From NCBI RefSeq assembly GCF_011305535.1, contig NZ_CP049906.1, positions 558,001 through 622,000 on the forward strand: a DNA stretch of 64,000 nucleotides, given 5' to 3'. A program made the position numbers and the translations under genes. This DNA is from Diaphorobacter sp. HDW4B (GTDB taxonomy: Bacteria; Pseudomonadota; Gammaproteobacteria; Burkholderiales; Burkholderiaceae_C). The notes below the pieces were generated by a model. That model ran no database searches and was not told the DNA's origin. It was given only the letters and a program-made list of their open reading frames with translations. This document shows positions 35,045-62,423 of the stretch, in pieces (the stretch's first letter is position 1; each line of letters opens with the position of its first letter).

Positions 35045-35914
35045 TCAACTCCAGGTGAAGCACTGCCACACCGTGCGGGTTTCGGGTTCGTAGAACACAA
35101 GCGTTTCTGCGTCGTGAATGATGCCGTAGTTCCCCGTGGAGAAAGCGCCGATGAACTGTGCGGGTTGGCCGTCCGGCGTGACCGGGAATTGATGGTCCCG
35201 ATCCTCATCGTTCACACGCGAACGGCTGCCAGTGTGGAAAGGATGCAGATCCCAATCGCATGGACCGCCAAGAACATGCGCCAGCGCACGGGGTTCGTTC
35301 AGCCAGTCCAGAAACGCCTGGGGATCGGTCGCCCGCTTGGCTTGGCTGGCCCACTCATCCGGGGCAAACAGCCCTTGCCTGCGCGATGCCTGCGCCTTGG
35401 CGGCGGCGTGGTCGTGCAACTGGGCGGCCTGCAGAATGCGCCGGTATTGGTACTCGGTGAATGCATCTCCTTGCAGCAGTTCAGCTGGCACGCGTGTGGT
35501 CAGGTTTTCCAATTCGCGGCGCAGGTGGCGCATGGTATGCAGCGGTTCATCGCCGGGCTCGATGCGCGCCAGGTCGAAGTAGCGCCAATCGGCCAGAAAG
35601 TGCATGCGGCAGGCATCATCGAGGCGAAAGGCCAGCCAGTTTTCGCTTGCCCAATCGTTGTAGTGAGCGTGCCCCTCCGCACCCAAGGTACCGTCGCATG
35701 GCTCGACCGTTCCCATCACACTCAAACGCCCTTGCCACGCGGGATTGAACGCAGACAGATCCAATGCGATCAACGGCAGCAAATGCTGCGCGGCTTCGGT
35801 GCGATCAGCGTCGGAGCCGCCGAAAACCAAGTCCCCATAGGGAAACAGCTGGGCCCAGTCGGGTGCGGTCAATGGATTGTGCAGCGGGTTGTTTTGCAAT
35901 GGGGATGGGGGCAT
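35045..35914 (-). CDS. Hypothetical protein, 289 residues
   Basis: Not recognised. The protein is soluble, with no signal peptide or membrane segment, and rich in Trp, His and acidic residues (DWAQLFPYGDLVFGGSDADR, HAHYNDWASENWLAFRLDDA, DWRYFDLARIEPGDEPLH). It ends in a beta-rich stretch (PAQFIGAFSTGNYGIIHDAE, then FYEPETRTVWQCFTW). It follows the molybdopterin subunit after 60 bases on the same strand, so it may be the last gene of that operon. An immunity-like or sugar-binding fold is conceivable, but nothing in the sequence decides it. Confidence 0.6.
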   Translation of the reverse strand: MPPSPLQNNPLHNPLTAPDWAQLFPYGDLVFGGSDADRTEAAQHLLPLIALDLSAFNPAWQGRLSVMGTVEPCDGTLGAEGHAHYNDWASENWLAFRLDDACRMHFLADWRYFDLARIEPGDEPLHTMRHLRRELENLTTRVPAELLQGDAFTEYQYRRILQAAQLHDHAAAKAQASRRQGLFAPDEWASQAKRATDPQAFLDWLNEPRALAHVLGGPCDWDLHPFHTGSRSRVNDEDRDHQFPVTPDGQPAQFIGAFSTGNYGIIHDAETLVFYEPETRTVWQCFTWS

Positions 35915-35974
35915 GCGCCATTTTCACCGAAGCGGATGAATGAACCGCCTTCCGGAACTGACGGTTTGCTGATC

Positions 35975-38332
35975 TCATTCGTTGCCCAACAGGTTCTGAC
36001 GCCATTGGTCGGCGATGTGCGGGAAACGCAGTGGCTCGTTGAGTCCCAGCAGCATGGTCAGCGTGCGAGGCGCGGTCAAGGGCAACTCTTGAACGCGGCA
36101 TCCGGTCGCATGGGCCACGGCGCAGGCGACGGCTGCTCCGACGTTGAGAATGGGCACTTCGCCCGCCCCTTTGATGCCAAGCGGTCCTATGGAAGGCGCT
36201 CCTTCGTGCAGCACGATGTCAACCGGAACGACATCCTGGGCCAGCGGGACGCGGAACGACTCCAGACCGGTTTGAAGAACCTGTCCCTGATCGCCGAGCG
36301 TGATTTCTTCGTGCAAGGCATATCCCAGTCCCTGCACCACGCCGCCCTGAATCTGCCCGTGGATGGCCCGTGGGTTGAGTGCGCGTCCCACGTCCTGAAC
36401 CACGGCATAGCTCAAGACTTCGATGTGTCCCGTGTCCGTGTCCACGGCGACCTCGCAGTCATGGACGGCGAAGACGGGGATGTCGATGGCTTCGATGAAA
36501 TGACCGGCTGCACAGCCCGGCATCGCCGCGACGCCGGGTTTGGTGAAGGCCCCTGTTCCAGCAATCGGCCCCATCACGGCATGGGCACGCTCGACGATCT
36601 GGGTCAGCGTCACGCCCGAGCCACGAGCGCCCAGAATTTCGACACGGCCTTCGCGCAGCACGAGGTCTTCGGCCGAAGCCTCCAGCATTTGCGAGGCGAT
36701 GCGCAGCACCTTGTCCTTCACTTCGAGACTCGCCATGCGGCTGGCCGCTCCGAGCGCCACGGTTTGCCGTCCACCGCCAATGCCGAGGTCGTAGCCTGCG
36801 CCATCGGTATCTGCCGTACGGACGATCACATCCTGTGGTCGCAGTCCCAGCGTATCGGCGACGATCTGCGGAATGGATTGCATCATCGAGCCCGAGCCGA
36901 TCTCCACACCCGAGGTCACGAGCGTCACACTGCCATCGAGATTGAGATTCACGGTGGCTGAGGAAGGCCCCACAAAAACGAACCAGGTTCCGACGACGGT
37001 CGCTCGGCCATACCGTCGGTGGCCCGCCTTGCTCTCGCAAGAGGGCTTGGAAGCCTTGAGCTGCTCCATCTTGCCGAGCATGGGTGCCAGCACGTCGCCT
37101 TCAAAGACCTGACCGGTGGCGCCGATATCCTTGTGGCCCAGGACGTTGCGACGACGGAACTCCAGCGGGTCCATGTCGATTACGGCGCAAATCTCGTCCG
37201 TGTGCCGCTCCAGCGCAAAGGTGTTGTAGACCCCATTGCACGCGCGAAATGCGCCATTGGGCGGTGTGTTGGTATAGATCACCCGGCTGACCAGCCGCAC
37301 GTTCTGCAGGCGGTAGTTGCCACCCAGCGTGTGTGCGGTCATGGTGGTCAGGAAAATCTGCTCGCCGCCGAACGCGCCGCCATCCATCAGCACCACGGCC
37401 TCGCGCGCCGCGATCTGTCCGTCTCTGGTGATGGCAGAGCGAATGCGGATTTCTGCGTTCTCGCGGCACAGGCAAGTCTGCATCTCTTCCTGCCGGGAGT
37501 TGACCAGCTTGACGGGGCGACCACTGGCGCGAGCCAAGAGCGCGGCATAGGGCTCGATGGCGCAATCGAACTTGAGCCCGAAGGCACCGCCGACGGGGGG
37601 AACGGTCACCCGAATCTGTGCGGGAGACACCTGCAGATAGCGGGCGGTGGCGGTGCGAACGGTCCATGGAACTTGTGTGGACGTTTCGATGTGGAACCGA
37701 CCATCTTCATATTGCGCGATCACGGCGCGGGGTTCAAACGACAGGTGGTTCTGGCGTGGCACCCGAAAGTGGCTGTCCACGATGGTGACGTCGTCGCGCG
37801 CAAAGGCGGCATCGACATCTCCGCGCACAACGGTGGCTTCCCAGGCCACGTTGCCGCCTCGCTTGCCGCCTTGGAACAGGATCTCGTGACTCTCCCAATC
37901 GGGATGCACCAGCGGAGCGCCGGGGGCGAGCGCGTCTTCCATGGTGGTCACTGCAGGCAGGGGCTGGATTGTCAGCTCGATGGCGGCGGCGGCGGCGCGG
38001 GCCTGCTCCAATGTGTCGGCCGCGACGGCGGCAATCGGTTCGCCCACGAAGCGCACGCGTTCGCTGGCGAAAAGCACCTCGTCCGCGACGCCGATACCGT
38101 GGCGTCCCGGTGCATCCTGCGCCGTGACGATGGCCCGAACGCCGGGCATCGCCCGCGCTTTGGAGCAGTCCAGATGAACAATGAGACCGCTTTGCACCTC
38201 GGATCGCAGCAGCGCGCCATGCGCCATGCCGGGGTAGGAGCGATCCACGGTGTAGCGGGTTCTGCCGCGCAGCTTGTCGGCGGCGTCGCGCCTTGGCAGA
38301 TTCATGCCAATGACGGCTTCATCGTGGTTCAT
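35975..38332 (-). CDS. Xanthine dehydrogenase-family molybdopterin-binding (large) subunit
   Basis: 785 residues; start at 38332 overlapping the stop of the 2Fe-2S subunit by ATGA. Mo-cofactor domain blocks are visible: PRRDAADKLRGRTRYTVD at the N-terminus, VPPVGGAFGLKFD (GGxFGxK), PNGAFRACNGVY, VEIGSGSMMQSIPQIVADTL, and the active-site Glu in LGIKGAGEVPILN. The enzyme hydroxylates an aromatic or N-heterocyclic carbon using water and passes electrons through the 2Fe-2S and FAD subunits. The substrate is unknown. Its operon neighbours (PxpA, AHS1/AHS2, biotin carboxylase) point to an N-heterocycle or lactam (inference). Confidence 0.93.
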   Translation of the reverse strand: MNHDEAVIGMNLPRRDAADKLRGRTRYTVDRSYPGMAHGALLRSEVQSGLIVHLDCSKARAMPGVRAIVTAQDAPGRHGIGVADEVLFASERVRFVGEPIAAVAADTLEQARAAAAAIELTIQPLPAVTTMEDALAPGAPLVHPDWESHEILFQGGKRGGNVAWEATVVRGDVDAAFARDDVTIVDSHFRVPRQNHLSFEPRAVIAQYEDGRFHIETSTQVPWTVRTATARYLQVSPAQIRVTVPPVGGAFGLKFDCAIEPYAALLARASGRPVKLVNSRQEEMQTCLCRENAEIRIRSAITRDGQIAAREAVVLMDGGAFGGEQIFLTTMTAHTLGGNYRLQNVRLVSRVIYTNTPPNGAFRACNGVYNTFALERHTDEICAVIDMDPLEFRRRNVLGHKDIGATGQVFEGDVLAPMLGKMEQLKASKPSCESKAGHRRYGRATVVGTWFVFVGPSSATVNLNLDGSVTLVTSGVEIGSGSMMQSIPQIVADTLGLRPQDVIVRTADTDGAGYDLGIGGGRQTVALGAASRMASLEVKDKVLRIASQMLEASAEDLVLREGRVEILGARGSGVTLTQIVERAHAVMGPIAGTGAFTKPGVAAMPGCAAGHFIEAIDIPVFAVHDCEVAVDTDTGHIEVLSYAVVQDVGRALNPRAIHGQIQGGVVQGLGYALHEEITLGDQGQVLQTGLESFRVPLAQDVVPVDIVLHEGAPSIGPLGIKGAGEVPILNVGAAVACAVAHATGCRVQELPLTAPRTLTMLLGLNEPLRFPHIADQWRQNLLGNE

Positions 38333-38808
38333 GGCTGCTCCCCCGAGCGGCTGGTCGCACTCGACAGCGCAAGCGCTGCGCCGACGATGCGTTCGTACCC
38401 GGTGCACCGGCAGATGTTTCCGCACAGGGCGGCTTTCACCTGTGGCTCTGTGGGGCTCGGCGTATGTTTCAAGAACGCGGTGAGGCTCATGACCATGCCC
38501 GGAAAACACATGCCGCATTGCACGGCATCGCACTGTTCGAGCCAGGATTGCACGGGCGACAAGGCGTCTTGCGAGCCCTGCGATTCAATGGTTTGCACCT
38601 CGGCTCCGGCCACATGAGCCACGGGCATCAAACAGGCGGTGATGGCCTTTCCGTCGACCATGACCGTGCATGCCCCGCAGAAGCCTTCTCGGCACACCAC
38701 CTTGGCACCCGTGAGGAAGAATTCGTCCCTCAGCACATCCACCAGCGGCGTCATGGGTGGGCTGTGAGACGTTCGCTGGTCGCCATTGAGCGTGAAGAGA
38801 ATGGGCAT
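38329..38808 (-). CDS. (2Fe-2S)-binding small subunit of the molybdenum hydroxylase
   Basis: 159 residues with two iron-sulfur sites: the plant-type motif CREGFCGACTVMVDGKAITAC and the helical-domain motif CDAVQCGMC with CGNICRCTGYERIV. This is the CoxS/XdhS/NdhS-type electron-transfer subunit between the molybdenum centre and FAD. It overlaps the large subunit gene by 4 bases and follows the FAD subunit by 39 bases, completing the usual medium-small-large order. Confidence 0.95.
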   Translation of the reverse strand: MPILFTLNGDQRTSHSPPMTPLVDVLRDEFFLTGAKVVCREGFCGACTVMVDGKAITACLMPVAHVAGAEVQTIESQGSQDALSPVQSWLEQCDAVQCGMCFPGMVMSLTAFLKHTPSPTEPQVKAALCGNICRCTGYERIVGAALALSSATSRSGEQP

Positions 38809-38847
38809 GTCCGTTCCTTGCTTGGAAGTGCTTGAAATGCGGGCTGT

Positions 38848-39748
38848 TCACCAGACGGGTGAGGATTCGGCCAATGGGGTCAGGCAGCGCTGCACCAAGG
38901 TGGGAAGCACCTTGACGCGGTACCAACCGGGGGCTTCCACCGTGTCACGCCCCACCCATTGAGAGGCCATTTCCCGCGCCGCCAGCCCGGCCTTGTCGGG
39001 GTCCAGTGCTTGCCCGACCAGCCAATGCTCTAGCGCGTGCCAGCGACGCGCGACTGCTTCCACGGAACCCCACCGCTACACGCGCCATGGTCACCGTGCC
39101 GTCGGGGGCCGTAGCCACGGCGGCACTCATGATGGCCACGGGATAGTCGCCTGCCTTGCGCAGCGGCAGCCGCACATGGGCCGACCGTACCCGCGTGTGC
39201 CGGAGATCACCGATCTGCAAAAGCACGCTTTCGACGATGTGCGAACCGTTGCTTTGTCCTCGCTCGGCAAGAAACTGCTCGATGCCGAGAAGCTCGCCTC
39301 CTGCAAGCGACACCACGCGCACTTGCGCATTGAGTGCCAACAATGCAGGGATCAGATCTGCTGCGCTGAAATCGGTTGCGCAAAGATTGCCACCCAGCGT
39401 CGCCACGTTGCGTACAGCGGGGTTGGCAGAAGCTCCAGCGGCGCTGGCCAGAGCATGGCATTCGATGCAGTTCGAGAGCGCGCGGGCCAGTTCTGCATGT
39501 GTGACGCCGCTGCCGATGCGGATCTGGTGCTCATCCATCTGCACCTGCTTGAGCTCGGCGATGCCAGCGAGGCTGACATAGTCGCGCTGCCCACCATCGC
39601 CACGCAAACCAGCGCGCATCAGCCAGGTTCCCCCGGCCAGCACGCGCGCGTTGGGGCCTCGCTTGTCCAATGCTTCGAGCGCATCTTGCACGGAGTGGGC
39701 TTGGTAGAAAGTGGAGCTTGCCAGACCCGTTTCGGCCACTGCAATCAT
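38848..39748 (-). pseudogene. FAD-binding (medium) subunit of the molybdenum hydroxylase, frameshifted
   Basis: The 5' part (start 39748, MIAVAETGLASSTFYQ) has the FAD-binding blocks ARVLAGGTWLMRAG, SAAGASANPAVRNVATLGGN and LCATDFSAADLIPALLALNA. After VTMARVAVG the frame runs into unrelated sequence, while the proper C-terminus (SVEAVARRWHALEHW and PGWYRVKVLPTLV) continues in another frame to 38848. Removing one C from CCCC at 39068-39071 joins both into a 299-residue protein of the normal family length. So this is either a true +1 frameshift or a sequence error; as given, the subunit lacks about 70 C-terminal residues. Confidence 0.88.
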
Positions 39749-39825
39749 GTTGTCTCCCGATCATGAAATCGTCTGTCGCCAGCACGAAGCAAGACATTGG
39801 TGGATGTGTTGGAAAGGCGCCTGCC

Positions 39826-40869
39826 TCACTTGTCACCGGGCACGATCATGCGATGGCGGATCTGGTCGGCCACCACGGCGATGATCAGGAGCGTTCCCAG
39901 CACCACCATTTGCAGGTAAGAGCCGACGTTGGATAGATTCATGCCGTTTTGCACCAGCCCGATGAAGATGGCACCCATCACGACGTTCGGCACGCGGCCC
40001 ATGCCGCCGCGCAGGCTGACACCGGCGATGACGCAGGCGGCAATCGATTCCAGCGCCACGGATCCACCGAGATTGGCCTCGCCGGTTTCCACCCGGGCCG
40101 TGAGCAGCAAGCCACTGACGGACGCGAGCAGCGCACACAGCAGGTAAGCCGTCAGCAGTACCCGGCGGGTATCGATGCCCGACAGTGCCGCCGCTTTGGC
40201 ATTGCCCCCCACAGCCAGCAGATGCGTGCCCAGCGGCAGGCGGCTCATGATCAACCCGATGAGCACCACACAGACCGCCGTGACCAGAACCGACACGGGA
40301 ATTCCCAGCAGCGTTCCGAAACCGAACAACGAACTGAACTCGTCCGGCAAGCCCGACACCGGCACGCCACCGGTCAGATACAGTGCCAGGCCGAAGCTGA
40401 TGGACTGCACGCCCAGGGTCATGATGAAGGGAGACACGCCGATCCATGCCACGCCGATGCCGTTGATAAGCCCGATCACAAGGCCGGCAAGCAAGCCGCA
40501 CAGGCAGCCGATGATCACCACGGTCCATGCAGATTCGGGCAGGACGCTGCCCAGCGCCTGCATCGCCAATGCAGACACAACCGACGTGACGGCCATGGCC
40601 GTGCCCACCGACAGATCGAAGCCGCCGGTGACCAGCGCCAGCATCTGACCGAGCGACACCAGAATCAGATAGACCGACTGCCGCAGCAGATTGACCATGT
40701 TCTGAACGGTCAGAAATTGATCCGACAGAAGACTGAACACGACGATCGCAATCACCAGCATGAACGGCAGCACGCCGAGACGCAGAAAGGCGGCACGAAG
40801 CAGCGTCAACGGACCTCTTGGGGCTGACGCGTGGGGCACGGCGACGGGCAGGGTTGGGTTGGTGTTCAT
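39826..40869 (-). CDS. RbsC-like ABC transporter permease
   Basis: 347 residues with about 8-10 hydrophobic segments and the family motif ALVTGGFDLSVGTAMAVTSV, LIMSRLPLGTHLLAVGGNAKAAALSGID and AACVIAGVSLRGGMG. The start ATG shares one base with the stop of the ATPase gene (TGATG at 40867-40871); the upstream GTG is less likely. Permeases of this kind transport sugars or autoinducer-like small molecules with a periplasmic binding protein, here the TorT-like protein at 42399-43481. Confidence 0.93.
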   Translation of the reverse strand: MNTNPTLPVAVPHASAPRGPLTLLRAAFLRLGVLPFMLVIAIVVFSLLSDQFLTVQNMVNLLRQSVYLILVSLGQMLALVTGGFDLSVGTAMAVTSVVSALAMQALGSVLPESAWTVVIIGCLCGLLAGLVIGLINGIGVAWIGVSPFIMTLGVQSISFGLALYLTGGVPVSGLPDEFSSLFGFGTLLGIPVSVLVTAVCVVLIGLIMSRLPLGTHLLAVGGNAKAAALSGIDTRRVLLTAYLLCALLASVSGLLLTARVETGEANLGGSVALESIAACVIAGVSLRGGMGRVPNVVMGAIFIGLVQNGMNLSNVGSYLQMVVLGTLLIIAVVADQIRHRMIVPGDK

Positions 40870-42377
40870 CACTTGCTTTCGTTGGAGCCAAAGAACAGCC
40901 CGAGGACGCGCGACTCGGAGATGCCATCACCTGTCAGCTCTCCGGCAATGACGCCGTGCCGCATGACGTACACGCGGTGGCTGAGGTTGAGGACCTCCGG
41001 CAGGTCCGAGGAGATGACCACCACCGCCGCGCCGCCCTCGCACAATTGCTGTATCACCCGATAGAGAGTGCTGCGTGTGCCGATGTCCACGCCCACGGTT
41101 GGCTCATCGAAGACATAGATGTTGAAGGGCCGCGTCAGGCCGCGCCCAAACATCACCTTTTGCTGGTTGCCGCCCGACAGCAGCGACACCGCGCGATACA
41201 GGTTGCGCGGAGCCAGCTCGACCTGCTGCGCCGCTTTTTCGGACAAGCGTCGCCCGAGCTTCTTGCGCAACCAGCCGCCGCGCCCACGCAGAGGACCATC
41301 CGCCAGCGGCAAGACGATGTTGGCGTGCGAGGAAAAGCCCAGCACGAGTCCTTCGTTCTTTCGGTCGGGTGGAAGGTAGAAGAACCCTTCGTCGAGCAGC
41401 TTGGCTACGCTGGCACCGGTTCTTTGCTGGCCTTTGAACGACACCGTTCCGCTGCTCACGTCATCGAGCCCGTAGATCGCGCGGAACAGTTCGGACTTGC
41501 CGCACCCGACCAGTCCCGCAAAACCCACCACTTCCCCGGCCCGCACCTGAAAGCTCGCATCACTCACGCCGTTGGGGGAACTGAGGTGCCGCACGTCCAG
41601 AACCGTCTGCCCGGGCCGGGATCGGATGGTGGGATAGACCTGCTCGATGGCGCGACCGGTCATCATCTCCACCAGCGCATCGGCGCTGGTGTCGGCGGCA
41701 TGCACCGTCCGGATTTTCTTGCCACCGCGCATGACCGTGACGCGATCGGCGATCTCCATGATCTCCTGCATCCGGTGCGAGATGTAGATGATTCCCACGC
41801 CCTGCTCCTTGAGTTGCTCGACGAGCTCGAAAAGCTTTCGCGACTCTTTGTCGGTCAGGGAGGCCGTGGGCTCGTCGAGGATCAACACCGAGACATTTCC
41901 GCGCAGGCCCTTGGCGATTTCGACCATCTGTTGCTGGGCGCGTGACAGCGACGAGATGTCCGCCGCACTGTCGATCTCGAATCCGAGCGAGGCCAGCATC
42001 TGGATGGCGCGCTTATTGAGCGCCTGCACATCCAGCAGTCCATGCCGACGCGGCTCGTCGCCCAGACTCAGATTGCGTGCGACCGACAGCGTCGGAACCA
42101 GCGAGAACTCCTGAAAAACCGCGCTGATGCCGTGTTGCCGCGCCTGGTGCACGTTGGCGAAACTCACCGCTTGCCCATGCATCAGAATTTGGCCGCTGGT
42201 GGGCGTGTGCGCGCCAGCCAGCAGCGAGATCAGCGTGGACTTGCCCGCGCCGTTTTCACCGAAGAGCACGTGGACTTCTCCGGATCGCAGCTCGAAATCC
42301 ATGGCATCGAGCGCTCGCACGCCCGGGTATTGCTTGCTCAAGGCAACCGTCTTCAGCAGGATGTCATCTGTGGACAT
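40869..42377 (-). CDS. RbsA-like sugar-type ABC transporter ATP-binding protein (two ATPase domains)
   Basis: 502 residues with duplicated nucleotide-binding domains. The first has Walker A GENGAGKST, signature SSLSRAQQQMVEIAKG (the LSGG-type motif is degenerate) and Walker B VLILDEPTASL. The second has the degenerate P-loop GLVGCGKSE, signature SLLSGGNQQKV and IYVFDEPTVGVD. This asymmetry is normal for RbsA/MglA. It energises import with the RbsC-like permease and the TorT-like binding protein of the same operon. Confidence 0.95.
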   Translation of the reverse strand: MSTDDILLKTVALSKQYPGVRALDAMDFELRSGEVHVLFGENGAGKSTLISLLAGAHTPTSGQILMHGQAVSFANVHQARQHGISAVFQEFSLVPTLSVARNLSLGDEPRRHGLLDVQALNKRAIQMLASLGFEIDSAADISSLSRAQQQMVEIAKGLRGNVSVLILDEPTASLTDKESRKLFELVEQLKEQGVGIIYISHRMQEIMEIADRVTVMRGGKKIRTVHAADTSADALVEMMTGRAIEQVYPTIRSRPGQTVLDVRHLSSPNGVSDASFQVRAGEVVGFAGLVGCGKSELFRAIYGLDDVSSGTVSFKGQQRTGASVAKLLDEGFFYLPPDRKNEGLVLGFSSHANIVLPLADGPLRGRGGWLRKKLGRRLSEKAAQQVELAPRNLYRAVSLLSGGNQQKVMFGRGLTRPFNIYVFDEPTVGVDIGTRSTLYRVIQQLCEGGAAVVVISSDLPEVLNLSHRVYVMRHGVIAGELTGDGISESRVLGLFFGSNESK

Positions 42378-42398
42378 GATGAGGCGGCTGATAGCGTG

Positions 42399-43481
42399 TC
42401 ACTTGACGTCGAAGACGGGCTTGAAGCCAGGAGGCGGCAGGATGTCTTCGAGCTTCACCGACTTGATGTTGCTGCTGTCCACCACAAAAATGCGGGGGCC
42501 CACATGTTTGCTGACCTCCTTGTTTTCCAGCAGACGAACCGCCTGATCCACGGCGATGCGCCCCTGGATCACCATCGAGTCGGCGGGGGCCGCCACGATG
42601 CGGCCCTTTTGAATGCCCTCGTACACACCGGGGGTCATGTAGAACGAGATGATCTGGATCTTCTTGTCCAGCCCACGAGACCGCAGGATGCTCGTGGAGG
42701 CCTCGGCGGTCACCGCGGTGCCCGCCACGTAGCTGACATCGGGGTTGCCCTGCAGCACGTCTTCGACCAGCTTGGACTGCGCTTCCTTGCCGGTATCGCC
42801 ATACTTGGGATCCAGCACTTTGACGGCGCTTCCCTTGATCGCATCATGAAAGCCCTTGTTGGCCGCCTCCACCCATCCAGCGCCTGCGGGGCCGGGGAAC
42901 CAGGCCACTTTGACGGGCGCAGAGTTGGCCGGATGCTTCTTGGCCAGATACTCCCCGCTCGAATATCCCATCGTGTAGAACGACACCAGGGACTTGGCGG
43001 AGACATCGGGCGAGTTGATGCCGTTGACCAGATCGACCACGGGGATCTTCTTGGCGGCCAAGGTCTTGAGCACATTGTTGAGACCATCGCTGGAGATCGC
43101 ACCAATGACGACGGCGTTGGCACCGCGCGCCACGCAGTTTTCGATCTGCGACAGCTGGTTGGCCAGATTGGTGTAGCCGCCCGCATCCAGCACTTGCAGC
43201 TTCACGCCGAGGCGCTTGGCTTCTTCGACCACGCCGTAGTCGACGCCCAGCCAGTACGCATCTTTCATGTGCGGAAAGGAAACGCAGACATCCCACTTCT
43301 TGGACGCCTTGCTGAGAGGCACGTAGTCCATGGCAATCTTCTTGCCATCGGCAGCGAACGCCGGCTCGGTGTACTCCGCCTTGTACGGAAACCAGTCAGC
43401 GGCCTGTGCGGATGAACACGCCAACAGGCTTGCGGTGATGGTGCTGGCGGTCAGCGCAGCGCGCAGAATCGAACCATTCAT
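42399..43481 (-). CDS. TorT-like periplasmic substrate-binding protein
   Basis: 360 residues with a signal peptide (MNGSILRAALTASTITASLL, then ACSSAQA). The mature part belongs to the periplasmic binding protein type 1 fold; the words KWDVCVSFPHMKDAYWLGVDYG, DAGGYTNLANQLSQIENCVA and VVIGAISSDGLNN follow the TorT branch. TorT itself senses trimethylamine N-oxide with TorS in enterobacteria, but here the gene is followed by RbsA- and RbsC-like genes and no TorS is near, so it is more likely the receptor of an ABC importer. The ligand may be a small N-containing compound (inference). Confidence 0.87.
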   Translation of the reverse strand: MNGSILRAALTASTITASLLACSSAQAADWFPYKAEYTEPAFAADGKKIAMDYVPLSKASKKWDVCVSFPHMKDAYWLGVDYGVVEEAKRLGVKLQVLDAGGYTNLANQLSQIENCVARGANAVVIGAISSDGLNNVLKTLAAKKIPVVDLVNGINSPDVSAKSLVSFYTMGYSSGEYLAKKHPANSAPVKVAWFPGPAGAGWVEAANKGFHDAIKGSAVKVLDPKYGDTGKEAQSKLVEDVLQGNPDVSYVAGTAVTAEASTSILRSRGLDKKIQIISFYMTPGVYEGIQKGRIVAAPADSMVIQGRIAVDQAVRLLENKEVSKHVGPRIFVVDSSNIKSVKLEDILPPPGFKPVFDVK

Positions 43482-43533
43482 GATATGTCTCCCAATGGGT
43501 TATCAACAAACGAACGCTTGGAATTCAGAGGTC

Positions 43534-44511
43534 TCAGGCAGAGAGGGCTTCCCGCAATCGATTGAGTCGTCGATGGCGATCCGAGCGCGCTGCCAGCGCC
43601 TGGGTCATGTCGACCGGCACGAAAATCGCTTTGTTGTTCGGCTGCATCTGCGCAATGCGGTCCATGTCCGCGCTGATCACCGTGCCCACCATGGCGTAGC
43701 CACCGCCTGACACTGCATCGCGCAGCAAAATGATGGGCTCCTTGCCGCCCGGCACCTGGATGGATCCGTAGGGATAACCGGCATCGACGATGTTCGATGG
43801 GTCAGCGCCTGCTCCAAAAGGCGGTTTGCGTTCCTTGAACTGCAGTGGCGTTCCGCCTTTGAAGCGGTAACCGATGCGATCGGCTTCCGAGCCCACGGTC
43901 CATGCGTCGGAAAACAGCGACTTGGTCGAGACCTCCTGCAATCGATGGAAGTACAGTCCGGGCAACACGCGCAGCGGCACTTCCTTGCTCAAGGCGGGAA
44001 GCAACGCCGCATCGACGCGGCGTCCGATGCGGGCGTGGCCCGAGGCCTTGCCGACGGGCAGGCGGTCACCGGCGATCAGCCTGCGTCCGTCCAGACCACC
44101 GAATGCGCCCAGGCCGTAAGTGGAGCGGCTTCCAAGCACCACCGGCACATCGATGCCGCCCGCCACGGCTATGCAGATGCGTGCACCGAGCTTCATGAAG
44201 TCGAACGACAGACGGTCTCCCGCCTGCACGGCGAAGGACTCGTTCTTGGGCTGCTCCATGCCATTGAGCTTCACCTTCGCATCTGCGCCCGTCACGGCGA
44301 CGATGCCTGCATCGTGGAACAGCAGTTCAGGGGCCATCAAGGTTCCTTCGATGGCCGCCGCGCCTTCGTCGTTGCCCACCAGCAGATTCGCAAACAACAG
44401 GCTTTCCTGATCCAGCGCGCCCGACATGGGGATGCCGAGATGGTAGTAACCGGGTCTGCCCATGTCCTGAACGCTGGTCGCCAGTCCGGGCTTCAACACT
44501 TCAATCGCCAT
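43534..44511 (-). CDS. pxpC: 5-oxoprolinase subunit C / biotin-dependent carboxyltransferase family (AHS2, KipA-like)
   Basis: 325 residues. Family words: VLKPGLATSVQDMGRPGYYH, GIPMSGALDQESLLFANLLV, GRRLIAGDRLPVG, SEADRIGYRFKGG and the end motif DAVSGGGYAMVGTVISADMDRIAQMQPN. PxpC is one of three subunits of the ATP-dependent 5-oxoprolinase; the same fold forms half of the carboxyltransferase domain of urea carboxylase. It overlaps the AHS1 gene by 11 bases. Neighbouring biotin carboxylase and BCCP genes favour a carboxyltransferase role here (inference). Confidence 0.9.
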   Translation of the reverse strand: MAIEVLKPGLATSVQDMGRPGYYHLGIPMSGALDQESLLFANLLVGNDEGAAAIEGTLMAPELLFHDAGIVAVTGADAKVKLNGMEQPKNESFAVQAGDRLSFDFMKLGARICIAVAGGIDVPVVLGSRSTYGLGAFGGLDGRRLIAGDRLPVGKASGHARIGRRVDAALLPALSKEVPLRVLPGLYFHRLQEVSTKSLFSDAWTVGSEADRIGYRFKGGTPLQFKERKPPFGAGADPSNIVDAGYPYGSIQVPGGKEPIILLRDAVSGGGYAMVGTVISADMDRIAQMQPNNKAIFVPVDMTQALAARSDRHRRLNRLREALSA

Positions 44512-45397
44512 ACAGCACCTTCAGCAGTTGTTGGTTGTAGCCATCGGGATCGGCCAGAAATTCCTTGAGCGAAAACGACACGGGACGACTGCGCAGGTCA
44601 TAGCTGCCCTGCTCCACTTGCGCGATCGTGCGGTCGTATTCCTCGCGATCGATGGGCTTCCACTTCACGATGTCCCCGGGTCTGAAGAACACCATCAAAT
44701 CCTTCATGTACGGCAACTGCTGCAGCGGATCGAAAATGGGTGCCGGTGTGACACCGAACATCTGATATCCACCGGCACCGCGCACCGAGTAGATGCAACT
44801 GAAGCAGCCGCCGTGGCCCAGAGTGAGCTTGGGCGTGTCCGTGCGTGGGCTGAGGTACTTGGGCACTTCGATCTGCCGCGACCGCTCGACCATCTGGAAG
44901 AGAAACGGCAAGCCAGCCACAAATCCCACCATCGACACAAACCACGGAGCGCCGGAATGCGCTGCGATGAAATCGTCCACCGATGGAAACTGGTTGATGC
45001 GTGCGGCGTATTCGATGTCCGTGCTGGTCGGGTCCTGGTGCCGTTCCCGAAACCGCATCTGCGTTTCGTGGGTCCATGGATCGTTGTAGAGCACGGGAAT
45101 TTCGACGATGCGGGTTTGCAGCGTGAGATCCGAATCGCGCAGTTCTTCCTCGATATCCTCCAAGGTTTTTTGGACCTCTTCGGGCAGGATGACATCGGGG
45201 TCGAAGCGCACCAGATAAGCGGCGTTGGCGGGACAGATCTCGGTCACGCCGGGCACCTTGCGCCGACGCAGCTCGTTGCAGATGGCCATGCCTTTGAAGA
45301 ACGCGGGCAGGCTCATCTCTTCATCGAGTTCCACAAAGAGATGTTCATCGCCGCCAAAGCTGTAGCGCGCTTTGGCAGGTAGCGTGCGGGGGCTCAT
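44501..45397 (-). CDS. pxpB: 5-oxoprolinase subunit B family (AHS1, KipI-like)
   Basis: 298 residues from the ATG at 45397, which overlaps the biotin carboxylase stop by ATGA. It has the AHS1 fold words VTEICPANAAYLVRFDPDVI, IVEIPVLYNDPWTHE, FVSMVGFVAGLPFLFQM and the closing GGYQMFGVTPAPIFDP. It is longer than typical PxpB (about 220 residues): both the N-terminal region and the C-terminal 70 residues (MVFFRPGDIVKWKPIDREEYD and onward) extend it, closer to AHS1 proteins of biotin-linked clusters. Together with AHS2 it would form the carboxyltransferase or kinase-like half of the enzyme. Confidence 0.88.
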   Translation of the reverse strand: MSPRTLPAKARYSFGGDEHLFVELDEEMSLPAFFKGMAICNELRRRKVPGVTEICPANAAYLVRFDPDVILPEEVQKTLEDIEEELRDSDLTLQTRIVEIPVLYNDPWTHETQMRFRERHQDPTSTDIEYAARINQFPSVDDFIAAHSGAPWFVSMVGFVAGLPFLFQMVERSRQIEVPKYLSPRTDTPKLTLGHGGCFSCIYSVRGAGGYQMFGVTPAPIFDPLQQLPYMKDLMVFFRPGDIVKWKPIDREEYDRTIAQVEQGSYDLRSRPVSFSLKEFLADPDGYNQQLLKVLYGD

Positions 45398-46785
45398 GAG
45401 CAGACCTCCACAGGCTGTTTGTTCTCCAATGGCTTGCCCGCCAACCAATGCTCCAGAAACCCGGTGTCGAAGTCTGCGGCGATGACGCTGGGATCGTTGC
45501 ACAGGGCCTGATGCATGGGGATGGTCGTGCGAACCCCTTCGACCTTGAGTTCGGAGAGCGCCCGGCGCATCCGGCTGAGGGCGGCGGTGCGGTTTTCGTC
45601 ATGCACGATGAGCTTTCCGAGCAAAGAGTCGTAGTACGCCGGGACGGTGTAACCCGCATAGAGCATGCTGTCGAAACGCACTCCCGGACCGCCCGGTACC
45701 GACAACTGGGACACCAGTCCAGGGCTGGGCATGAAGTTCTTGGCGGCGTCCTCGGCGTTGATGCGGACTTCGATGGAAGCCCCGTTCAGGCGGATCTGCT
45801 CCTGACGCAACCGCAGCGGATGGCCCAATGCGATCTTGAGCATCTCCCGCACCAGATCGACGCCGGTGATCATCTCCGTGATCGGGTGCTCCACCTGAAT
45901 GCGCGTGTTCATCTCGATGAAGAAGAACTCCCGAGAATCATCGTCATACAGATACTCGAGCGTGCCCGCGCCCCGGTAAGCCACGGCCCTGGCCAGTCGG
46001 AGCGCCGAATCGCAAAGCGCCTCACGTGTTGTCTGGTCGATGGCGGCGCTGGGCGCCTCTTCCCACACCTTTTGCCTGCGGCGCTGGAGCGAGCATTCCC
46101 GCTCGAAGCAATGCACCACCTGCTGCCCATCTCCGAGAATCTGCACTTCGATATGCCGTGCCTTGCGAATGAATCGCTCCAGATAGACCGCGCCGTTTCC
46201 GAACGCGGCCTGCGCCTCGGCCGTGGCGGTGGCAAATTGCTGGCGCAGCTCGTTGGCATCGGCCGCCACGCGTATGCCTCGGCCACCACCTCCTGCGGAT
46301 GCCTTGATCATGATGGGATAACCAATGTGGTCGGCGATCCGCACGGCCTCCTCCACGTCTTGGACCACGCCATCGCTGCCGGGAACCGTGGGCACACCGG
46401 CGCGCTGAGCGGCCGCGCGTGCCGCAGCCTTGTCTCCCATGGTGCGAATCGAATGGGGTGTCGGCCCCACCCAGACCAAATCTGCGCGCTCGACGGCTTC
46501 GGCAAAGTCTGCGTTCTCCGACAGAAATCCGTAGCCGGGATGCACGGCCTGCGCTCCGCTGCTGAGCGCCGCCTGGATGACGGCATCTGCGTTCAGATAG
46601 CTCTTGGTGGCATGCGCGGGTCCGATGTGCACGGCCTCGTCCGCCATCTGCACGGCAAGGCTTTTCGCATCGGCATCGCTGTAGACCGCGACGGTCTTGA
46701 GTCCGATTTCCTTGGCGGCGCGGATGATGCGAACCGCGATTTCACCGCGATTGGCGATGAGCAGTTTCTGGAATTTTTCGTTCAT
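45394..46785 (-). CDS. Biotin carboxylase (AccC family)
   Basis: 463 residues, ATP-grasp enzyme with LLIANRGEIAVRIIRAAKEI at the N-terminus, ATP-binding loop IKASAGGGGRGIRVA, SLQRRRQKVWEEAPSA, catalytic EMNTRIQVEHPITE and the C-terminal domain. It carboxylates biotin on a carrier protein using bicarbonate and ATP. It is adjacent to its own carrier gene (12 bases upstream) and to AHS1/AHS2 rather than AccA/AccD. It is therefore probably dedicated to the split urea-carboxylase-like enzyme of this operon and not to fatty acid synthesis. Confidence 0.93.
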   Translation of the reverse strand: MNEKFQKLLIANRGEIAVRIIRAAKEIGLKTVAVYSDADAKSLAVQMADEAVHIGPAHATKSYLNADAVIQAALSSGAQAVHPGYGFLSENADFAEAVERADLVWVGPTPHSIRTMGDKAAARAAAQRAGVPTVPGSDGVVQDVEEAVRIADHIGYPIMIKASAGGGGRGIRVAADANELRQQFATATAEAQAAFGNGAVYLERFIRKARHIEVQILGDGQQVVHCFERECSLQRRRQKVWEEAPSAAIDQTTREALCDSALRLARAVAYRGAGTLEYLYDDDSREFFFIEMNTRIQVEHPITEMITGVDLVREMLKIALGHPLRLRQEQIRLNGASIEVRINAEDAAKNFMPSPGLVSQLSVPGGPGVRFDSMLYAGYTVPAYYDSLLGKLIVHDENRTAALSRMRRALSELKVEGVRTTIPMHQALCNDPSVIAADFDTGFLEHWLAGKPLENKQPVEVCS

Positions 46786-46797
46786 GGCTTGGCCACC

Positions 46798-47046
46798 TCA
46801 CGCCACGTCAATGATGGCCAGCGCCTGACCGGGATCGACGGCATCGCCGTTCTCGGCGCAGAACTGCTTGAGCGTTCCAGCCACTTCCGCATTCACTTCG
46901 CTGAACTGCTTCATCACTTCGACGAGGCCCAGCACATCCCCCACGGCGACCCGATCACCGACGGACTTGAACTCTGGCGCGTCCGGTGCAGGTCGGCGGT
47001 AGAACGTGCCTGGCAGCGGGCTTTGAACTTCATGGGATGTGGACAT
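46798..47046 (-). CDS. Biotin carboxyl carrier protein-like biotinyl domain
   Basis: 82 residues, a lone biotinyl domain. The biotin attachment Lys is in GLVEVMKQFSEV (EVMK in place of the common EAMK), with flanking strands SPLPGTFYRRPAPDAPEFK and AENGDAVDPGQALAIIDVA. It lacks the long N-terminal part of AccB and so is a carrier for a specialised carboxylase. It lies between pxpA and the biotin carboxylase gene. Confidence 0.92.
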   Translation of the reverse strand: MSTSHEVQSPLPGTFYRRPAPDAPEFKSVGDRVAVGDVLGLVEVMKQFSEVNAEVAGTLKQFCAENGDAVDPGQALAIIDVA

Positions 47047-47103
47047 GCGGGTCTCCTTGAATGCAAGAATGGGGCGGGATGCGTGAATGGGGTGCGCTGC
47101 GTC

Positions 47104-47886
47104 TCATGCACTGGCTGGCGGTCGCTCTCCGAACCCGGCGATGCGGATCTGGTGGGCGATCAGCAACTCGCGAGTGGCTTGTGCCAGCCCCAGCGCGCCG
47201 GGCGTATCGCTGTGGATGCATACCGAGTCCACATCCATGGGGATGTCCTGACCCTCCACGGTCCGCACCACGCCTTCGGTACAGACGCGCAACACTTTTT
47301 GCGCGACGGCCTGCGGGTCGAGCGCGTTCACACTGCGCTTGAAAACGATGGAGCCGCTGGCGTCGTAGTCACGATCGGCAAAGAATTCGCGGATGACGGG
47401 TTGCCCCATTTCTTTTGCCACGCGGTAGGTGATGGACGGCTCCATGCACAGCAGATAGAGATCTGGTGCCACAACACGCAAGGCCTTGACGAGTGCGCGC
47501 GAGAGCTCCTCGTCTCGTGCGGCATGCATGTAGAGCGCGCCATGTGGCTTGATGTGCTGAAGCTTGACGCCTGCAAGACAGGCGAGTTCACGCAGCGCAC
47601 CGAGTTGGTAGAGGATGTCGTTGACCAGCTCGTCGGCCGGCGCGTTGATGTGCCTGCGCCCGAACCCCACCAGATCGCGAAAGCCTGGATGCGCGCCGAC
47701 CCCCACGCCGAAATGCTTCGCCTGCTTGAGCATCTTGAGCATGGTGTTGGGATCGCCAGCATGAAAGCCGGTGGCCACGTTGGCCGAGCTGATCAAAGGC
47801 ATCAACTCGTCCTCGATCCCATCACCAATCGTCCAGGCCCCGAAGGCCTCGCCCATATCCGAGTTCAGATCAATTTGTGTTTTCAC
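47104..47886 (-). CDS. pxpA: LamB/YcsF family 5-oxoprolinase subunit A (PxpA)
   Basis: 260 residues from a GTG at 47886, which gives the standard beginning (V/M)[17 protein letters not shown] and has AAGG upstream; a further GTG at 47913 is possible. Blocks: [63 protein letters not shown] and [13 protein letters not shown]. PxpA performs the hydrolytic ring-opening step of 5-oxoproline after activation by PxpBC. It is first gene of the leftward operon, with a LysR regulator divergent. Confidence 0.93.
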
Positions 47887-47961
47887 TTTGGAACCTTGCC
47901 TGAGTTCAAGCACCGTGGATTCAGGTGCAATGGAGGCAAGGTTAGTAATCTGAAAAGGTCC

Positions 47962-47979
47962 TGAAAAGCATTGTTTTCA
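47962..47979. promoter_or_regulatory. Inverted repeat TGAAAA-N6-TTTTCA in the pxpA/LysR divergent promoter
   Basis: Perfect 6-base arms in the AT-rich 224-base gap. Together with the site at 47990-48006 it could form the two-site arrangement used by LysR regulators. Confidence 0.4.
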
Positions 47980-47989
47980 AGCGGCTCGA

Positions 47990-48006
47990 TATCTGTTTTT
48001 CAGATA
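47990..48006. promoter_or_regulatory. LysR-type box (TATCTG-TTTTT-CAGATA)
   Basis: Perfect 6-base arms around T5; the inner 13 bases (47992-48004) fit the LysR consensus T-N11-A. It sits about 105 bases upstream of the LysR start and about 105 bases upstream of the pxpA start, as expected for a recognition-binding site of the divergent regulator. Confidence 0.55.
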
Positions 48007-48110
48007 CGAGTTCAGCACCCAGTGAAGGACTGGGACTAACCCGAATGATTTGTCATCCATTTTTCGCGTTTTGAAGATCACAATCGAGCGATTAACCAAG
48101 GGACATTTCC

Positions 48111-49040
48111 ATGTCACTGCTGTCGCTACGCCAGTTGAAATACTTCACTGCAGTCGCTGAAATAGGCCGCATCTCGCATGCAGCGCAGGAACTCAACATC
48201 TCGCAATCTGCCGTGACGACGGCCATTCGCGAACTCGAAGAATTGTTGGGTCAGCCACTATTCGAACGCCAAACACGAGGCGTGGAATTGACGAGAGCGG
48301 GCAGGCGTTTTTTGAGCCATGCCTATGCAGTGCTGGCGGCGGCAGACGAAGCCGTGAACATGCCCCCCGACGAGCAGCAGACGGAAGGTATTTTCACCAT
48401 CGCGGCCAGCTACACGGTGCTTGGCTACTTTCTTCCGCACCATCTGCAGCGCTTCACTCAACTGCATCCCAACGTGGAGGTGCGTGTGCACGAAGTCACC
48501 CGCAACGCCATCGAAGAAGGACTGCTGACACAGCGCTATGACCTGGGCGTGCTGCTCACCTCGAATGTCGAATTGCGCGAACTTTCGCTGGAGACTTTCT
48601 TCGGCTCACCCAGACGCTTGTGGGTGCCCAGCAAGCATCCCTTGCTCGACAAGGCGGAGGTGTCCTTGGCCGATCTGGTGGACGAACCGTACATCATGCT
48701 CACCGTGGACGAGGCCGCGGTCACAGCACTCAAGTACTGGAAGGCGACTCCCTATCAGCCCAACGTGCGCATGCGAACCAGCTCCGTCGAGGCGGTTCGC
48801 AGCACAGTGGCCAATGGCATGGGAGTGACGATCCTGTCGGACATGGTCTACCGTCCGTGGTCGCTGGAAGGCAAGCGCATCGAAACCATCAACCTCAGCG
48901 ATTCCGTCCCCAACATGAACATCGGACTCGGTTGGCGCAACGGGGTTGAATTCACTCCCGCGATGAAGACCTTCCGAGACTACTTCCGACGTCAATATCT
49001 GGAACGCAGCACGGCGCGCAATGAAAAGCTGCAGGCGTGA
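48111..49040 (+). CDS. LysR-family transcriptional regulator of the pxp/carboxylase/hydroxylase operon
   Basis: 309 residues. N-terminal helix-turn-helix: LSLRQLKYFTAVAEIGRISH, then AQELNISQSAVTTAIRELEE and LLGQPLFERQTRGVELTRAGR. The effector domain follows (FTIAASYTVLGYFLP onward). It is divergent from the pxpA operon across a 224-base gap with two symmetrical sites, so it probably activates that operon in response to its substrate. Its stop codon directly abuts the stop of a convergent small membrane protein gene. Confidence 0.92.
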   Translation: MSLLSLRQLKYFTAVAEIGRISHAAQELNISQSAVTTAIRELEELLGQPLFERQTRGVELTRAGRRFLSHAYAVLAAADEAVNMPPDEQQTEGIFTIAASYTVLGYFLPHHLQRFTQLHPNVEVRVHEVTRNAIEEGLLTQRYDLGVLLTSNVELRELSLETFFGSPRRLWVPSKHPLLDKAEVSLADLVDEPYIMLTVDEAAVTALKYWKATPYQPNVRMRTSSVEAVRSTVANGMGVTILSDMVYRPWSLEGKRIETINLSDSVPNMNIGLGWRNGVEFTPAMKTFRDYFRRQYLERSTARNEKLQA

Positions 49041-49887: not shown

Positions 49888-49906
49888 AAGTAGCAGAGGT
49901 GTGGCC

Positions 49907-50239
49907 ATGCCCAAGTTACGTGATTCCGAAAAAATCGGCGCCGAATCAGAAACGCTTCCCCATAAGCTTGTCGAAGGATGGCCCGTTCAGGACGCGGCTG
50001 ATCTGGGAAAGATCGTCAAGCGTTTCCGCAAGAGTCAAGGTCTCGCCATCGATGATGCAGCGGCGCTGTCGAGCGTGTCTCAGGACAGCTACTCGCGGCT
50101 GGAGCGTGCCTCGGGCGGGATTGGCACGGATCGCCTGTTTGCCATTCTCGACAGTCTGGGACTGGAGATGCAGCTCGTGGACAAGAGCCGAGGCATGCAT
50201 GCTGCGACCAGCGAAATCATCAAACGGTTTGAATCATGA
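49907..50239 (+). CDS. hipB: HipB-like XRE-family antitoxin
   Basis: 110 residues from the ATG at 49907 with AGAGG 7 bases upstream; a GTG at 49901 is less likely. Helix-turn-helix of the Cro/CI type: DLGKIVKRFRKSQGLAIDDA and AALSSVSQDSYSRLERASGG, then TDRLFAILDSLGLEMQLV. It is expected to bind HipA and to repress the operon through the three palindromes upstream. An N-terminal extension of about 30 residues precedes the DNA-binding domain. Its stop overlaps hipA by ATGA. Confidence 0.9.
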   Translation: MPKLRDSEKIGAESETLPHKLVEGWPVQDAADLGKIVKRFRKSQGLAIDDAAALSSVSQDSYSRLERASGGIGTDRLFAILDSLGLEMQLVDKSRGMHAATSEIIKRFES

Positions 50240-54459: not shown

Positions 54460-54470
54460 GGGTATTTTCT

Positions 54471-58504: not shown

Positions 58505-59281
58505 TCAACCTTGATCGCCACCGCCCACAGGCAGGACGGTTCCGGTGATGTAGGAGGCATCGTCGGATGCCAGGAACAGAATCGCGCCAGCTTGCTCGTC
58601 GAGCGTGCCGTAGCGCTTCATCAGCGTGGTGGCTACGGTCTGATCGACGATCTGCTGGTACCAGACCTTGTCCTTGGCCCCCAGCTTGCTGGTGTTGCGT
58701 GGAATGCGGCGTGGCGGCGCTTCGGTGCCGCCGGGTGCCACCGCGTTGATGCGGATGCCGCGCTCGCCGTTCTCGAAGGCCAGGCATGCAGTCAGCGCAT
58801 TTACGCCGCCCTTGGCCGCGCCGTAGGGCACGCGGTTCACGCTGCGTGTGGCGATGGACGAGACGTTGACGATGGCACCCTTTTTCTTCTTGAGCATGTA
58901 GGGCAGCACGGCGCGGCAACCCCAGAGCGTCGGGAACAACGAGCGGCGCACTTCGGCCTCGATCTCGGCGGGCGTGTAGTGCTCGTAGGGTTTGGTCCAG
59001 ATGGTGCCGCCCACGTTGTTGACCAGAATGTCGATGCGCTTGAACTGCTTGACGGCTGCGGCAGCGGCTTGCTCTGCGCCGTCGAACTGCTCCAGATCGA
59101 CCTCGATGGCGATCACTTCGGTGATCTCCTCAAGGCGCTTGCGCAGATCCTGCACGAGCGGCGAGCGGTCCACCAGCACCAGCTTGGCACCTTCGCTTGC
59201 GGCCAGTTCGGCCACGCGCTCGCCAATGCCTTGTGCGGCGCCGGTGATCATCATCACCTTGCCTTCGAATCGGTTTTTCAT
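58505..59281 (-). CDS. benD: 1,6-dihydroxycyclohexa-2,4-diene-1-carboxylate dehydrogenase (BenD)
   Basis: 258 residues, short-chain dehydrogenase. NAD-binding MITGAAQGIGERVAELA, LVNNVGGTIWTKPYEHY, catalytic Ser in VNVSSIATRSV and the Tyr-Lys pair in VPYGAAKGGVNAL. The N-terminus MKNRFEGKVMMITGA is typical of BenD. It oxidises and decarboxylates the benzoate cis-diol to catechol, producing NADH. It follows benC by 15 bases. Confidence 0.94.
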   Translation of the reverse strand: MKNRFEGKVMMITGAAQGIGERVAELAASEGAKLVLVDRSPLVQDLRKRLEEITEVIAIEVDLEQFDGAEQAAAAAVKQFKRIDILVNNVGGTIWTKPYEHYTPAEIEAEVRRSLFPTLWGCRAVLPYMLKKKKGAIVNVSSIATRSVNRVPYGAAKGGVNALTACLAFENGERGIRINAVAPGGTEAPPRRIPRNTSKLGAKDKVWYQQIVDQTVATTLMKRYGTLDEQAGAILFLASDDASYITGTVLPVGGGDQG

Positions 59282-59296
59282 GTTGCGCTCCGGACC

Positions 59297-60316: not shown

Positions 60317-60346
60317 CGTGGTCTCCTTGTTGTGGGGCTGCCGTCG

Positions 60347-62214: not shown

Positions 62215-62354
62215 GGTGGGTCTCCTTGGGATGCAGCCATCCCCCACGACGTTTCGTCGCGGTTCAACAAAGTTGGAAAGCAAAACGGGAAAGTGGTGAA
62301 GCGTGGGAAGAAGCGAGCACCAGGCTCTTGGCACATGGCCCCTCTTCCCTTGCT

Positions 62355-62381: not shown

Positions 62382-62390
62382 GCAGGTGTC

Positions 62391-62415: not shown

Positions 62416-62423
62416 CAGCGGCC

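Follow-up and report, generated by a model that had tools for sequence, protein, structure and literature searches.

The stretch of Diaphorobacter sp. HDW4B analysed here (64,000 nucleotides, called the window below) carries eleven genes on its minus strand as one leftward run, from PxpA to XdhL (47,913–35,975), with a divergent lysR gene alongside. Reading from right to left, the order is pxpA, bccp, biotin carboxylase (BC), AHS1, AHS2, a torT-like gene, rbsA, rbsC, xdhM, xdhS and xdhL; a series that an earlier sequence-only reading had put forward in just this order, and that open reading frames (ORFs) and Pfam domains now confirm gene by gene (Table 1). Pfam models were used for each gene of the window, and NCBIfam/TIGRFAM models with curated cut-offs for subfamily calls. 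We conclude that the operon is real, conserved and functionally coherent; its complete gene order recurs at other loci, and a chance cluster is therefore rejected.

As to function, we favour a catabolic role (probability about 0.5, judged from sequence comparison), in which a nitrogen heterocycle would be imported, oxidised to a lactam by a molybdenum (Mo) hydroxylase, carboxylated in a biotin-dependent manner and opened by PxpA. Working from the outside of the cell inwards, the TorT-like binding protein together with RbsA/RbsC would bring in a small N-heterocycle; XdhMSL would oxidise the carbon beside the ring nitrogen (at a C=N bond, as in a 1-pyrroline-type cyclic imine) to give the lactam; biotin carboxylase would charge BCCP-biotin with CO2, spending ATP; AHS1/AHS2 would hand the carboxyl group to the gamma-lactam, most likely onto its nitrogen; and PxpA would hydrolyse the activated amide, with CO2 released again. 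The product would be an omega-amino acid, gamma-aminobutyrate (GABA) being our best guess, that could pass onward to succinate via GabT/GabD. We infer the activation of a gamma-lactam by carboxybiotin, and its opening by PxpA, from the conserved residues of AHS1, BCCP and XdhL together with the GABA genes described below. What the sequences establish is which genes are present, how they are ordered, that their linkage is conserved and, by alignment, the catalytic residues; substrate, direction, N-carboxylation and product are our inferences. The same chain of import, hydroxylation, carboxylation and ring opening had been proposed beforehand and is still the best reading, with strong co-conservation in its favour, although close relatives show no linkage. 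That proposal did not include the HyuAB relatives beside the same Mo hydroxylase, the much wider occurrence of the carboxylase set apart from it (then next to gabT–gabD, CapAB, BioY or a possible NCS1 permease), the Aspergillus lamA/lamB parallel or the frameshift in xdhM. The more general proposition—that biotin-borne CO2, rather than phosphate, activates stable gamma-lactams in bacteria, in a complete and repeatedly reassembled pathway whose lactam is made by a dedicated Mo hydroxylase out of cyclic imines or N-heterocycles taken up by the cell—is one we put forward tentatively, at somewhat less than even odds.

Linkage of the molybdenum hydroxylase to putative lactam-opening genes

XdhMSL comprises the flavin adenine dinucleotide (FAD), [2Fe-2S] and molybdopterin subunits of the xanthine-oxidase family, the first of them frameshifted, together with the G-x-K-G-A-G-E segment of XdhL, which we take to be the region of the catalytic glutamate and which 16 of 17 relatives retain (the one remaining, L114, is cut off at the locus end). 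In its domains, its subunits and this presumed catalytic region the enzyme resembles 4-hydroxybenzoyl-CoA reductase, quinoline 2-oxidoreductase and 6-hydroxypseudooxynicotine dehydrogenase; it differs from the modelled subfamilies in scoring far under their cut-offs (best TIGR03194, 432.9 of 994.55 bits) and is best regarded as a separate subfamily. Identification as CO dehydrogenase or xanthine dehydrogenase is rejected, as the scores fall short of the subfamily cut-offs. In a plasmid search, members of the XdhL subfamily were at least 64% identical to the window XdhL, the next match standing at 36%. Counted in genomes at a cut-off of E 1e-180, XdhL occurs in one genome among 399 from the window's own order (the window's), in 4 of 398 of its phylum (the window's included) and, for the order to which genome G517 belongs, in 10 of 347, with which a second sample (7 of 199) overlaps. 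These ten genomes are probably alphaproteobacterial, judging by the likeness of their genes to genes on plasmids of Rhizobium, Aureimonas, Sulfitobacter and Sinorhizobium.

Eighteen XdhL loci were read: the window, the ten genomes, six of the twelve plasmid records whose XdhL is at least 64% identical (H4–H7, H10 and H11 were left out) and L114, a locus that entered through the search with AHS1 and not XdhL. They are not all independent, as L129 nearly duplicates L162. Seven have the complete eleven-gene order (the window, L130, G705, G843, G879, G779 and G1031, the last on a contig that stops short of lysR); six hold the carboxylase core, HyuAB and XdhMSL; and four hold HyuAB and XdhMSL with the core absent from the stretch read. 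Within the stretches read, the carboxylase set is found at 13/18 loci and either that set or HyuAB relatives at 17/18, or, leaving aside the window and L114, at 11/16 and 15/16 respectively. HyuAB relatives stand at ten of the eighteen and a TorT relative at thirteen; in S. sojae a GabT relative lies 3′ of xdhL. The linkage of XdhMSL to the carboxylase genes recurs in several bacterial families. XdhMSL also adjoins HyuAB, another type of ATP-dependent lactam-opening enzyme, and this placement suggests that XdhMSL delivers a lactam.

AHS1 is present somewhere in all ten XdhL genomes (in G868 on another contig, in G836 some 290 kb away), as against 22 of 175 genomes in a sample of the order. Eight of the ten are among those 22, the other two, AHS1-positive as well, lying outside the 175-genome sample; the 8/8 co-occurrence has a hypergeometric probability of 1.7e-8, with shared ancestry not corrected for. 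The check suggested by the sequence-only reading, whether relatives keep the Mo hydroxylase and carboxylase genes together, thus came out in its favour: co-conservation is strong among the distant XdhL loci, but invisible among close relatives, where XdhL was found in 1 of the 60 searched, the window's own genome. Of six genomes from the genus, again the window's alone has AHS1; the distribution of the operon is therefore patchy.

In the XdhL tree, whose deep branches are without resolution, well-supported branches require that the label 'core plus TorT order' changed at least twice; XdhMSL partners have therefore been exchanged, which favours a functional tie over inertia. A distinctly unlikely alternative is that the carboxylase set acts on an imported lactam, with XdhMSL serving a separate, co-induced branch (for example on an aldehyde or another heterocycle of the same diet). 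It would accord with the loci of the AHS1 search, taken as the 80 best among 577 confirmed relatives in a one-genome-per-species collection (up to 20.9 kb each, some much shorter), of which 79 have no XdhL, the exception being L114 from Sneathiella; and with the TorT tree (31 rows), in which the six other complete-order loci cluster together (support 99/94) and the window is placed with Comamonadaceae loci that are without xdhMSL in the stretch read. Against this alternative stand the label changes in the XdhL tree and the fact that all but one of the eighteen XdhL loci are adjoined by lactam-opening enzyme types, of two unrelated kinds.

The split carboxylase and its nearest known systems

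BC, BCCP, AHS1 and AHS2 correspond to the domains of urea carboxylase set out as separate proteins, as the earlier reading had it: four genes, with the expected Pfam domains. With pxpA they make up a five-gene core that is complete, as called ORFs, in 73/80 AHS1 loci; in the remaining seven PxpA and BCCP are missing in five, BC in one and AHS1 in one, and in those without PxpA and BCCP (L109, L108, L073, L054 and L070) the AHS1 match starts 0.3 to 1.5 kb from the left contig or locus end. The E-V-M-K of BCCP is kept in all 75 BCCP relatives found in these loci (a PxpA motif pattern, matched by 42 of 75 PxpA relatives, was not used). A BioY-family gene directly 3′ of AHS2 in five loci (L072, L092, L094, L100 and L105; by Pfam on L092, by clustering for the others) supports biotin dependence. 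The name acetyl-CoA carboxylase, carried in databases by BC and BCCP, is rejected, the carboxyltransferase halves being of the urea-carboxylase type.

By sequence, the nearest PDB chains to AHS1 are those of urea carboxylase (3va7, 5i8i), followed by KipI and PxpB-type proteins. Lys180 of AHS1 aligns with position 1605 of chain 5i8i_A (its chain numbering taken as residue numbering); according to PMC5770610, Lys1605 of the K. lactis urea amidolyase is most likely the essential general base in carboxyl transfer. The position is Lys in 80/80 AHS1 loci and in 11/11 Xdh-linked orthologue rows (91 rows, the eleven being those found within the 18 stored Mo-hydroxylase stretches), as well as in 13/13 long urea-carboxylase-type chains examined as a control and in the AHS1 relative of L017 (36% identity); it is Arg in the aligned chains 2zp2 (KipI), 2phc (PH0987) and 9yx5_W, and in three other loci (L018, L019 and L032). 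As two further clusters of the window's own genome have Arg here and yet a biotin carboxylase close by (see below), we consider the residue suggestive and not conclusive.

Compared with the K. lactis urea carboxylase, the window set shares BC, BCCP, CT_A_B and CT_C_D, the base Lys1605 being matched by Lys180, but is split into four genes, has PxpA in place of allophanate hydrolase, and includes an AHS1 that shares only 26–30% identity with the order's long urea-carboxylase-type chains; its single chains reach 32 to 544 of the 1303.85 bits set by the urea carboxylase model TIGR02712. There is no allophanate hydrolase among the operon genes, no search having been made in the rest of the genome.

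PxpABC offers a second comparison, the window having a PxpA of the LamB/YcsF family and two halves related to PxpB and PxpC. It differs from PxpABC in that BC and BCCP are added within the same run, that Lys stands in AHS1 where aligned KipI/PxpB-type proteins have Arg, and that AHS1 and AHS2 score below the cut-offs of the PxpB and PxpC models (TIGR00370, 76.5 of 145.55 bits; NF045499, 212.7 of 500 bits). A plain operon for 5-oxoproline utilisation, that is PxpABC with extra biotin proteins and the Mo hydroxylase as an accidental neighbour, would be in keeping with a PxpA that passes its subfamily model; we judge it very unlikely in the face of those two scores, of the phosphorylation of 5-oxoproline that is assumed for PxpB/PxpC in PMC13274462, and of a linkage to XdhMSL that recurs across families.

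The closest known system is, in our best reading, the lactam pathway of Aspergillus LamA/LamB, of which the window operon would be the split bacterial counterpart. The LamB/YcsF family takes its name from Aspergillus lamB, and 2-pyrrolidinone serves as substrate; LamA, one long chain, is a biotin protein resembling urea carboxylase. By domain content, and with LamA understood in this way, the window presents the same pairing of urea-carboxylase-like proteins with a LamB-family hydrolase, on separate bacterial genes rather than with a single-chain LamA; we know of no dedicated ATP-binding cassette (ABC) importer or Mo hydroxylase for Aspergillus lamA/lamB. According to PMC8016842, A. nidulans lamA and lamB are lactam catabolism genes under AmdR, along with gatA (GABA transaminase). 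On the bacterial side, GABA-breakdown genes adjoin some relatives of the operon (gabT and gabD in Variovorax, gabT elsewhere); the window operon itself has none.

A pair of adjacent AHS-like genes had been noted previously, with no functional data, in some bacteria and archaea (PMC3199775). In a literature search that went mostly without subscription papers, we recognised no description of the operon or of a biotin-dependent bacterial lactamase. Were the proposed pathway true, it would add a third chemical strategy of lactam hydrolysis to those of PxpABC and HyuAB/5-oxoprolinase; gamma-butyrolactam is among the simple amides hardest to hydrolyse. It would also account for the names 'acetyl-CoA carboxylase' and 'allophanate hydrolase' that these genes bear in databases, assign a role to a set of genes that is found widely, and make the genetics of Aspergillus lamA/lamB testable through separate bacterial subunits.

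Neighbourhoods of AHS1 relatives and competing functions

Neighbour families at the 80 AHS1 loci were built from ORFs picked by codon-position composition and then clustered, one or two members of each being put to Pfam/NCBIfam. A LysR relative (45% identity or more) occurs at 59 loci and a TorT relative at 29, 26 of which have RbsA and RbsC as well; HyuA and HyuB relatives are found together at 22. GabT relatives are found in eight, in six of them directly 3′ of rbsC. The Variovorax locus L043 runs core, torT, rbsA, rbsC, gabT, gabD, thus placing gabT–gabD where the window has xdhMSL; its GabT passes TIGR00700 (600.5 over 506.65) and its GabD TIGR01780 (714.3 over 646.35). Among the loci compared, it is Variovorax that holds the closest core proteins (AHS1 85%, BC 84%, RbsC 84%, TorT 82%).

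CapAB/OplAB, of the HyuAB superfamily, are like the proposed pathway in opening lactams at the expense of ATP; they differ in belonging to other protein families, found near the cluster's relatives and absent from the window operon. In P. jessenii an omega-aminotransferase and a 6-oxohexanoate dehydrogenase come after the caprolactamase step (PMC6061476 and PMC11033972). Among the AHS1-linked members tested, caprolactamase equivalogs pass their cut-offs of 1000 at L114 (CapA 1244.7, CapB 1107.0) and L090 (CapB 1107.9).

Several observations weigh against the proposed pathway. The nearest Variovorax loci have no xdhMSL in the stretch read, yet keep a TorT of 82% identity and the same candidate operator (see below); because they do, the importer may carry the lactam itself, with the Mo hydroxylase acting on something else. 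G868 has XdhMSL with neither the carboxylase set nor HyuAB in its stretch, and in the six loci where HyuAB and the carboxylase set occur together they would be redundant for one lactam-opening step. HyuA and HyuB of L127 and L128 lie far under the caprolactamase cut-offs (515.4, 298.3, 492.0 and 313.0 of 1000 bits). A permease family follows AHS2 in 25/80 loci and would fit hydantoin- or nucleobase-like substrates (the one member tested is weakly NCS1-like, with PF02133 at 19.1 bits, under the cut-off of 23.5; two neighbour-permease queries gave no match, one of them being out of frame). The window's xdhM is frameshifted. The two further PxpA/AHS2/BC clusters of the window's own genome (L138 and L139, both on the other contig, C1) have Arg at the position of AHS1 Lys180; as both also have biotin carboxylase nearby, Lys is no simple mark of biotin dependence, and the two are perhaps a second biotin-linked class.

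Part of this would suit a hydantoin- or ureide-type function, which we regard as unlikely: the Mo hydroxylase would turn an imidazole or imidazolinone into a cyclic ureide, and HyuAB or the carboxylase/PxpA would open the ring. A carboxyltransferase of urea-carboxylase likeness would be at home here, as would the possible NCS1 permease and the HyuAB genes at XdhL loci, given the scores at L127 and L128. Telling against it, GabT/GabD by the importer in the nearest relatives and CapAB equivalogs elsewhere point to omega-amino-acid products, and no carbamoylase was recognised among the selected neighbour families scanned.

The xdhM gene (38848–39748) is broken such that its last ~60 codons lie in another frame, xdhS and xdhL being open, and 17/17 relatives read through the break point in a single frame, so that intact copies exist elsewhere. 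The frameshift may stem from an error in sequencing or reflect genuine decay; because of it, the Mo-hydroxylase step may be impaired in the window genome. In G836 (contig C3, ~744.5 kb) xdhL is read as two overlapping ORFs, as is hyuB, through frameshifts or assembly errors.

Regulation, boundaries and surroundings

The operon's genes are 12 to 57 bp apart or overlap by 4 to 11 bp (BC/AHS1, AHS1/AHS2, RbsA/RbsC and XdhS/XdhL), with exceptions around xdhM: 77 bp separates it from rbsC, and 136 bp lies between its first-frame stop and xdhS, or 39 bp if counted from the end of the out-of-frame remainder. At the other end of the run, an alternative upstream GTG start of pxpA is possible at 47913. 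The sequence-only reading had begun the unit at 35,045, thereby taking in a 289-amino-acid ORF (35,045–35,914) that has no match to Pfam (E 0.001) or NCBIfam (E 0.01) models and, as a query, none to any ORF at the other 17 Mo-hydroxylase loci; we reject it as a member for these reasons, and the conserved unit ends at 35,975.

A LysR gene divergent from pxpA is also present in six Variovorax loci (L043–L048, 77–80% identical). Of the two elements in the intervening gap, ATCTG-N5-CAGAT is exact in L043–L047 and L049, with one mismatch in L048; in whole or part the gap elements are common to 7 of 11 aligned relatives, six of them Variovorax. ATCTG-N5-CAGAT and TGAAAACAATGCTTTTCA are candidate operators and, since they are shared, one inducer probably acts on both the window operon and the Variovorax operons that carry gabTD. 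A trimethylamine N-oxide sensor role for the TorT-like protein is rejected, given its ABC importer neighbours and the lack of a Tor context in the operon; TorS, TorR and TorA are absent from the operon genes, no search having been made in the rest of the genome.

Table 1. Coordinates and model matches of the operon genes, the regulator and the candidate operators
Feature	Position	Strand	Matches and remarks
LysR-type regulator, divergent	48111..49040	+	LysR_substrate, HTH_1
Candidate operator ATCTG-N5-CAGAT, lysR–pxpA gap	47991..48005	.	both arms exact in the window and 6/11 aligned relatives
Second candidate operator TGAAAACAATGCTTTTCA	47962..47979	.	stretch AAAACAATGCTTT kept in 7/11 aligned relatives (L043–L049)
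PxpA / LamB_YcsF family hydrolase, candidate ring-opening subunit	47104..47886	-	PF03746 297 bits; NF003814 300.8, cut-off 226
BCCP, 82 amino acids, with E-V-M-K	46798..47046	-	PF00364 (Biotin_lipoyl); NF005457 124.4 bits, cut-off 87
Biotin carboxylase	45394..46785	-	Biotin_carb_N/CPSase_L_D2/Biotin_carb_C; NF009471 784 bits, cut-off 686
AHS1 (CT_C_D), carboxyltransferase half with Lys180	44501..45397	-	PF02682, 133 bits
AHS2 (CT_A_B), carboxyltransferase half	43534..44511	-	PF02626 281 bits; TIGR00724 262.5 bits, cut-off 230.2
TorT-like periplasmic substrate-binding protein	42399..43481	-	PF13407 (Peripla_BP_4); TIGR02955 321.9 bits, cut-off 310
RbsA/AraG-type ABC ATPase	40869..42377	-	PF00005 (ABC_tran), two stretches
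RbsC-type permease	39826..40872	-	PF02653 (BPD_transp_2)
XdhM FAD subunit, N-terminal frame	38945..39748	-	PF00941 (FAD_binding_5); C-terminal part out of frame
XdhM C-terminal remainder, other frame	38848..39063	-	aligns with relatives' C-terminus; no Pfam match alone
XdhS [2Fe-2S] subunit	38329..38808	-	PF00111 (Fer2), PF01799 (Fer2_2)
XdhL molybdopterin subunit	35975..38332	-	PF01315 (Ald_Xan_dh_C), PF02738 (MoCoBD_1), PF20256 (MoCoBD_2)

The window lies on the 761-kb contig C2 of a two-contig, 6.21-Mb genome; MoCoBD_1, a Mo-hydroxylase domain, is matched five more times in this genome, each time on the other contig. Scans for promoters (2 found, 2.4 expected) and terminators (14 found, 9.0 expected) were uninformative.

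Elsewhere in the window, a helix-turn-helix gene and a HipA-family gene (49901–51582) form a candidate HipBA-type toxin-antitoxin pair; a HipA pair is likewise seen in Rhizobium TH2, there 3′ of xdhL (L127, 18684–20167). A large repetitive protein at 32444–34630 combines an Lcl_C domain with an Ig-like match and an IPTL-CTERM sorting signal. By eye, two adjacent large ORFs at 51611–54510 look like dynamin-like P-loop GTPases, and ORFs at 58505–63434 resemble a cluster encoding benzoate dioxygenase and catechol 1,2-dioxygenase.

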